This document shows, piece by piece, positions 59,897 to 61,632 of a DNA stretch of 64,000 nucleotides. The notes beneath the pieces were generated by a model. It saw only the letters and a list, made by a program, of their open reading frames with translations, was not told the origin of the DNA and made no database searches. The DNA lies in contig BCKT01000007.1 in the NCBI GenBank assembly GCA_003116875.1, forward strand, positions 732,365 through 796,364, in the 5' to 3' direction. Source of the stretch: Takashimella koratensis. Lineage: Eukaryota > Basidiomycota > Tremellomycetes > Trichosporonales > Tetragoniomycetaceae. Numbering within the stretch: position 1 is the stretch's first letter; each line of letters begins with the position of its first letter. A program made the position numbers and the translations under genes.

Positions 59897-61632
59897 ATGC
59901 CGCCCAAAGACGCCGCCGAGAGCAAGCCCGACGACGCTGTCTTGCCTCTACAAGAGTGGCTGCGTCTCCTCTCTTCGCGAGGGGTGAACATGCGCGTCGC
60001 CATGGCCCTGGCGGCGAAAGCGTGAGTCATGGCTTCTCCCTATCATCTTGGCGGATAGGGAGTCAACATCAAAGGGAGATGGGAATTGGGGTGGGACTGT
60101 AGCTGATTTGGTAATGGATTGGAAACAGGTACAGCGCGAATAACACAAAGGGGAAGATGGCGGGGATCAGTTCGCAAAAACTCGCAGAGTGGGTGCCGGA
60201 CAAGGATCAGCGAAAGACGGTCAGCAATGCGCTTCGGGGCTTGGCAACTGGCAAGGTGGGTGTGAAGCTGCCCTGCCTTGCACGAGTGGTGTGAAGCTAC
60301 ACTCCAAGGTGTTGGGGAGCTGGATGGAGTCGGCTCACATGTGACAAAGCTGACGCTTGAGCCTTTGGGAACATGTTTTGGGTGTCACAGACATTCACGA
60401 AGAAGCGCGGGAGAGACTCGGATCTTATGGAGCCGCTCAAACCCGAACCTGGTCCTGACATTCCCATGTCATACGAGTTCAACGAAGTCACCGACCCAGA
60501 GGTTGGTCAACCACTGTCCTTCCTCTCCCAGCGCCGCTCCTTTTCAACCTCTCTTCCAGCTTGACCTCTTCTGACCTGTGCAGGAGCTCATCCCATTGAC
60601 GGTCACTGTCAACCGCGCGCCTATCAAGACCGCATGGGCATTCGTTGTTGCTCGTCGACTCGGGTTCGACGTCGAGGAATCTCTCTCGATCGCACACGTC
60701 CACGTCCACATATCAAGTCTGAAACATGCGCTGATGTTGGGGAACATCTTGAATGCGGCCGAGACGAAAGAGGCGGAGGAAGAGTTGAGAGAGTTGCCGG
60801 CTGAAGGAGGAGGAGGTGGAAATGCTGGGTGGGGGAGAGAGAAAGGTGGAGCGGTAGGGAGAGGAGGGAGAGGGTGGAAGGGGAAAAAGGCGGAGGAGGT
60901 TATCCCTGTTGGAAGTAGTCAGCCATGGGTTGGAATCTTGCGATCAAGGTGAGTCGTCAGGAATGGCTTGGTTGATATTTGCTGACAACCTCTCGTTAGA
61001 ATGTAAGTTTGTTTATCATATTGGTATGAAAAAGAACTTACGAGACTCAGTCCCGTCATTGAGCGCCCAGATGGGACATGTCGAGCTATCCAACAAGGTG
61101 TCGCTGTACAGCCCAACGTTGTGGGGTTTTTTTCCCTCTACTGCTTTCTATCTTACTTCCCTCCCTTCACAAACTTGAAGCTGATGTCATACAGGCATAC
61201 TCGTACATCACGAAAGCGCTCAAATCATCAACTGGCGCCGTGCTAGGCGCGATGCAACTCGTCGCCCAGTCTTACTCTGCTGACGAGTTGAACCGTGTCG
61301 GCTCAGGACTATACGTAAGTGACAAGAAGCAGGGTGATTGCAAAAGATGGGCGCTAACATCGGACCTGTTGTAGAACGAGTTCAAACCGGATGTCGTCGA
61401 GTGGGGTCAGCGCGGGACATTGTCCGTCGCCAAGATTCTGGATCAAATGTCATCGACGCCATTATCCGATCCGGACCCTCAATCCTCTGCACAACCAGTG
61501 CCCGAGACCAACAAGACCGCAGAAGACGAAGATAGCGCGGCCCCACCACACAAACGAGCACGCGAAGCAATATCAACATCCGATGGAGACGATGGGGAAG
61601 GAGGCTTCCTCGTAGGCGGAGACGCTGTATAA
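59897..61632 (+). CDS. Conserved fungal protein of unknown function
   Basis: Nuclear-type acidic/basic protein of about 360 residues. Exons: 59897-60021, 60129-60255, 60391-60501, 60584-60948, a candidate 3-nt exon 61000-61002, 61051-61116, then 61195 onward (two exons) to 61632. The N-terminal part contains LQEWLRLLSSRGVNMRVAMA. The core is IPLTVTVNRAPIKTAWAFVV, then ARRLGFDVEESLSIAHVHVH, QPWVGIL, PVIERPDGTCRAIQQGVAV and AYSYITKALKSSTGAVLGAM. The C-terminus is low-complexity, with PPHKRAREA as a possible nuclear signal, ending GGDAV. I recall a similar core in other fungal hypothetical proteins (a helical APxxTAWAxxVAxRLGF block followed by YSYITRS) but cannot name the family. Confidence 0.75.
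61000..61002 (+). other. Candidate 3-nt microexon (AAT)
   Basis: Three bases flanked by complete introns: 60949-60999 (GTGAGT, TGCTGAC branch site, CGTTAG, 51 nt) and 61003-61050 (GTAAGT ... ACTCAG, 48 nt). Inclusion completes codons AGA and ATT (Arg-Ile) across the junctions. Skipping it, as one 102-nt intron, leaves a single Ser and also keeps the frame. Inclusion and skipping are both possible. Confidence 0.5.

Follow-up and report, generated by a model that had tools for sequence, protein, structure and literature searches.

A probable three-nucleotide coding exon between two short introns in a conserved basidiomycete gene

The trinucleotide AAT at positions 61000-61002 of the window (the whole stretch of 64,000 nucleotides that was analysed, part of a 25.1-Mb genome in 24 contigs; genome G000, contig C7) is very probably a genuine 3-nt coding exon, normally included in the transcript, whose flanking introns would be removed consecutively. 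The sequence itself, the unique fit of AAT to a motif of the protein family and the pattern among homologous proteins were established directly. Coordinates of the host gene and of the segment around AAT are given in Table 1.

Table 1. Host gene and features of the candidate microexon segment (positions in the window).
Feature	Position	Strand	Remarks
Host gene, eight coding exons	59897-61632, stop included	+	manual model, translated
Exons 1-4 of host gene	59897-60021, 60129-60255, 60391-60501, 60584-60948	+	manual model
Exons 5-8 of host gene	61000-61002, 61051-61120, 61195-61314, 61375-61632	+	manual model
Upstream exon	60584-60948	+	3′ end AG is the first two nt of the Arg codon
Intron 1, 51 nt, phase 2	60949-60999	+	AAG|GTGAGT...TGCTGAC...CTCGTTAG
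Candidate microexon AAT, 3 nt	61000-61002	+	base 3 of the Arg codon and bases 1-2 of the Ile codon
Intron 2, 48 nt, phase 2	61003-61050	+	AAT|GTAAGT...AACTTACGAGACTCAG|TCC
Downstream exon	61051-61120	+	base 3 of the Ile codon, followed by PVIERPDG

An earlier note on this DNA had placed introns of 51 and 48 nt around AAT; on re-reading, coordinates and letters proved exact, and the donors GTGAGT and GTAAGT, the YAG acceptors and the TGCTGAC branch site that it had described were all found. TGCTGAC lies 15 nt before the acceptor TTAG of intron 1, and a branch-like AACTTAC lies 11 nt before the acceptor CTCAG of intron 2. Canonical splice sites thus stand on both sides of AAT, as required of an ultra-short (≤15 nt) coding microexon. 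The upstream exon ends at the same place in homologues in which the intron is read through (P0040), and the segment PVIERPDG of the downstream exon is conserved in homologues. Inclusion of AAT gives LRSRIPVIERPDG, with Arg-Ile before PVIERPDG, and skipping gives LRSSPVIERPDG (RSSPVIERPDG), with a single Ser; translation agreed with the note on both products. Because the exon is 3 nt long and both flanking introns are in phase 2, skipping preserves the frame and costs one conserved residue.

The manual model was translated into a host protein of 392 aa with the AAT microexon and 391 aa without it. The first protein search gave 43 homologues at E≤0.001, the top ones being, as we take it from the organism names, Tremellomycetes; by sequence similarity the host gene is a conserved basidiomycete protein gene. 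The protein was assigned to no Pfam family, had no sequence match in the PDB and matched nothing in Foldseek at E≤0.001. Its N-terminal region appeared SAM-like in a second structural look, with no Foldseek match at E≤0.001, and the microexon residue lies within a confidently predicted beta-strand. Two other intron donors of the gene, 60502-60507 (GTTGGT) and 61121-61126 (GTGGGG), are weak (near the 6th percentile and at the lowest, respectively, among the 66 reference introns described below); the joined frame across both is backed by homologues. The homologues P0176, P0193 and P0191 bear database names like glutamine synthetase or nucleocapsid protein, probably through errors of name transfer.

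Splice signals were compared with 66 high-confidence introns from 264 kb of the host genome; a first training set of 263 introns was dropped, as its long tail suggested false positives, and the stricter set was used. The reference introns have a median length of 89.5 nt and 5th-10th percentiles of 46.5-52 nt; the two introns, which had been called normal in size for this genome, are in the range of this 66-intron reference but at its short end. Intron 1 reached the 92nd percentile in combined score (donor, branch site and acceptor). The donor of intron 2 stands at the 73rd percentile; its branch-like site, CTTAC instead of CTRAY, brings the combined score down to the 11th. In dinucleotide shuffles of the interior of the 102-nt segment, an equally good pair around 3 nt arose in 0 of 20,000 cases, and an equally good exon of any size from 1 to 15 nt in 22 of 20,000. 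An equally good inner pair was absent from all 31 other high-confidence introns in the 85-150 nt range that lie outside the window. Read as a single 102-nt intron, the segment has its strong branch-like site 66 nt from the outer acceptor; a distance of at least 60 nt was seen in 5 of the 53 introns having a strong site, which disfavours the single-intron reading.

The core pattern CTGAC..YAG-NNN-GTRAGT showed no excess genome-wide (25 sites versus 23 in the reversed control). Ab initio scoring of these loci, carried out on the stored strand only, obtained a site at 14 of the 25 and did not single out the AAT locus, since L026, L028 and L030 scored higher. At the AAT locus a second intron of 109 nt was preferred over that of 48 nt (17.4 versus 16.8); the longer intron would remove the conserved PVIERPDG. 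Taken by itself, the splice-site pattern would be no proof of the AAT exon; homology must decide.

For the segment flanked by the anchors QPWVG and ERPDG, all products of splicing out one or two GT/GC-AG introns with a minimum length of 30 nt were enumerated. Twelve were open, and [K/R/Q]-[I/V]-P was present in one of them, inclusion of AAT with the GTGAGT donor. AAT is thus needed to restore a conserved protein motif, one found in the homologues. RSSFP, the one other product as long as the inclusion product, would depend on an AAG acceptor together with a GTTTAT donor and lacks the motif; a product with a GC donor reads LIP, outside it. The (R/K)-(I/V)-P arrangement given in the earlier note is real: among the matches listed, a stretch of three residues with I or V in last place is present in 37 of 37 Pucciniomycotina proteins, 9 of 9 Agaricomycotina proteins from intron-free contigs and 26 of 160 Agaricomycotina genome annotations.

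These counts come from three protein searches that yielded 210 proteins, the second contributing the best 120 of 164 and the third the best 120 of 395, both ranked by profiles built largely on inclusion forms. A script sorted all 210 by the segment that separates QPxV from PxxxxxxxRA; 198 were parsed. Subphyla were presumed from organism names and, for unnamed contigs, set by nearest relative; P0112, first put in Pucciniomycotina, was nearer to Agaricomycetes by BLAST and was left out of both groups (clade unsure; it also includes the residue). Among the matches listed, the Pucciniomycotina proteins all have three residues ending in I/V (37/37). The 160 listed Agaricomycotina genome annotations have the residue in 26 cases, lack it in 107 and have another form in 27 (15 longer, three with a different third residue and nine unparsed). 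P0135, P0188 and P0210, which have the different third residue, were left without explanation; the unparsed P0119, P0120, P0145 and P0179 also look short.

All nine Agaricomycotina proteins from short intron-free contigs among the matches listed (P0033, P0073, P0075, P0082, P0083, P0092, P0133, P0141 and P0166) carry the residue. Since ORFs of 345-401 residues run unbroken on these contigs of 1.2-3.0 kb while the host gene has seven introns, we infer that the contigs, known here through their proteins alone, are assembled cDNA. The difference between these nine and the 160 listed annotations gave p = 1.4e-6 in Fisher's test, and 1e-4 for the six contigs of ≤2 kb, in a comparison in which related sequences are not independent and the profiles built on inclusion forms could favour inclusion slightly. 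Judged by their sequences, the residue-lacking annotations are best read as missed microexons. Some of the 107 may come from projects that used RNA-seq, which was counted against the exon.

Homologues one residue shorter, named in the earlier note as evidence against the exon, do exist (107 of the 160 listed annotations), but several are contradicted by near-identical sequences that bear the residue. P0082 and P0107 of Suillus placidus are 93% identical, with a single gap that is the Ile; P0083 and P0097 of S. fuscotomentosus are 98.5% identical, the residue being absent in P0097; and P0033 and P0029 of C. neoformans (96% identity) differ by one gap, at the same residue. Two C. neoformans annotations, P0028 and P0029, read KVP versus NP at 97% identity, and C. 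deuterogattii and C. decagattii (P0026/P0027) read KIP versus NP. K-V or K-I versus N is the difference predicted by AA|X, YZ|T on inclusion and AA|T on skipping. Asn or Ser stands at the junction in 12 of the 107 short forms and in none of the 73 long forms among the matches listed (p = 0.0017), as would be expected of a mis-joined codon. Two Cryptococcus annotation papers describe the use of TopHat with its search for microexons (PMC3990503, PMC8022950), a possible reason for the presence of the residue in some Cryptococcus models. The residue is absent in all 12 Kwoniella proteins listed (P0005-P0007, P0009-P0015, P0017 and P0020), with Lys at the junction in 10 and Asn in two. P0008 of Tremella mesenterica reads KAIPVVER, with the Ile present and the preceding Lys/Arg missing; it fits neither plain inclusion nor plain skipping and was tallied, oddly, among the 107 short forms.

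Further boundaries are indicated by annotations that appear to retain intron sequence. P0040 was regarded as genomic because its 18-residue insertion looks like a read-through intron; it is identical to P0033 over 68 and 111 residues and, at GILGSK, runs into non-coding letters exactly where P0033 goes on with VPILER. Its tail is compatible with TAG|GGT|GTAAGT following an intron of 56 nt, as are 27 of 2,000 shuffled tails. The genomic tail of P0035 has no strict pattern; looser patterns fit it, and also fit 86-156 of 2,000 shuffles. Seven of the 15 long annotated forms (P0025, P0114, P0127, P0143, P0168, P0177 and P0192) retain an insert of the size of intron 1 that closes with R-I-P, the reading dictated by an acceptor AG immediately ahead of the three nucleotides. 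P0023 and P0191 (long) and P0138 (unparsed) show M-Y following K or R, as AT|GTAY demands when intron 2 is left in. The long form P0113 reads RRQRI, and five of the 15 (P0079, P0125, P0126, P0146 and P0205) were left without explanation and, like P0008, counted against the exon. As far as can be read from their residues, these intron-retaining, misannotated relatives mark the same inner boundaries as the AAT introns, and we infer that the relatives would carry the exon in their DNA. Scanning of viral contigs with P0033 (12 pattern matches) and of genome contigs with the 44-row alignment A1 (nine pattern matches) gave no relative.

The same observations bear on other explanations. If positions 60949-61050 were one ordinary 102-nt intron spliced out at once, chance would account for AAT and the inner sites, and the protein would read RSSPVIERPDG. 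A length of 102 nt is common here (median 89.5 nt), the outer donor and acceptor are good, the core pattern is not enriched genome-wide and the one-residue-shorter form is that of 107 of the 160 Agaricomycotina annotations among the matches listed. We nevertheless regard the single intron as quite unlikely in view of the absence of the inner pair from 20,000 shuffles, the presence of the residue in the 9 of 9 intron-free-contig and 37 of 37 Pucciniomycotina proteins listed, the near-identical pairs that differ by it and the strong branch-like site 66 nt from the outer acceptor. It is very unlikely that both forms are made and regulated, with skipping acting as a one-residue switch that alters the protein by trading Arg-Ile for Ser: among the matches listed the skipped form occurs only in genome annotations and in none of the nine intron-free contigs, and the residue lies inside a conserved predicted strand. 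A 3-nt exon between two phase-2 introns could nonetheless be skipped without change of frame, and a regulated fungal microexon is reported for Trichoderma Xlr2 (PMC11121469).

Two adjacent short fungal introns that need consecutive removal also resemble stwintrons, composite introns that are described as having a splice signal interrupted by an internal intron and no coding exon between. The introns around AAT, in contrast, both have complete, uninterrupted canonical GT..AG sites, and a conserved codon depends on the intervening 3 nt, which are coding in the only product with the motif. No splice signal is interrupted, and a stwintron is scarcely credible here.

In the preferred reading, with AAT as an exon, each intron, having a donor, a branch-like site and an acceptor to itself, would be recognised as a unit (intron definition). 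There is no room on three nucleotides for two assembled spliceosomes, and introns 1 and 2 would therefore be removed in succession; after the first removal the remaining one would be an ordinary intron. AAT would then complete the Arg codon and give two thirds of the Ile codon, in the conserved predicted beta-strand.

Judging from the homologous proteins, Tremellomycetes and Agaricomycetes probably share the two-intron arrangement, which many automatic annotations would have overlooked; conservation of the exon throughout Agaricomycotina, with frequent omission from gene models, is likewise probable. We consider it fairly likely that a single 3-nt exon predates the divergence of Tremellomycetes and Agaricomycetes and persists, together with both phase-2 introns, throughout most of the subphylum. 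If so, the AAT exon would be constitutive, would rank with the oldest exons known close to the lower size limit, and would be omitted or garbled in most public gene models of the host family there.

The earlier note had placed the exon among the smallest known; it is indeed ultra-short, but 1-nt exons have already been published. The 1-nt exon of Fusarium CYP621A was described in 2026 as the first for a fungal gene (PMC12940212). Like the candidate AAT exon, it is an ultra-short fungal exon in a conserved motif, missed by annotation and inferred from homologues; it was, however, confirmed by reads, whereas the AAT exon rests on sequence comparison, and it is not frame-neutral and occurs within Fusarium, whereas the AAT exon is frame-neutral and apparently subphylum-wide. 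The 1-nt exon of Arabidopsis APC11 (PMC4674806; wider plant set in PMC8831610) is constitutive, conserved and of a kind often unannotated, as the AAT exon would be, and intron definition with consecutive removal was proposed for it (PMC4674806); it differs in being from a plant and in having been tested with reporter constructs and RNA-seq. Plant reads indicated consecutive removal, the upstream intron tending to be detained (PMC8831610). The micro-exon of Drosophila homothorax also measures exactly 3 nt. It is conserved, as the AAT exon probably is, but undergoes alternative splicing as the opening 3 nt of a 48-bp exon, and the functions of its isoforms were tested (PMC7392893). Trichoderma Xlr2 shares a fungal microexon, but one that acts as a glucose-regulated switch in a transcription factor (PMC11121469). 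In the open-licence literature, no title among the matches listed concerned the host gene or a basidiomycete nuclear 3-nt exon. Ultra-short exons, of 1 nt in Arabidopsis and Fusarium and of 3 nt in animals, are thus already on record, and what makes the AAT exon interesting is its apparent age.

If the AAT exon is genuine, it would show that fungal spliceosomes that use intron definition can go on splicing in a 3-nt exon through very long periods of evolution, and such fungi would be suited to asking which of two back-to-back introns is removed first. The results point to a one-residue error in a conserved segment of many public models of the host family, and suggest that fungal annotations miss ultra-short exons. 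Proteome-wide comparison of intron-free metatranscriptome ORFs with genome annotations for gaps of one or two residues could reveal more microexons.

Two of the loci that outscored AAT in the ab initio analysis were considered as further 3-nt exons. L030 was rejected, as stops break its flanks on translation. L028 (G000:C3:419848-419889, + strand) is a candidate 3-nt exon that is also AAT, with GTGAGT introns of 77 and 49 nt and frames that are long and open on both sides.
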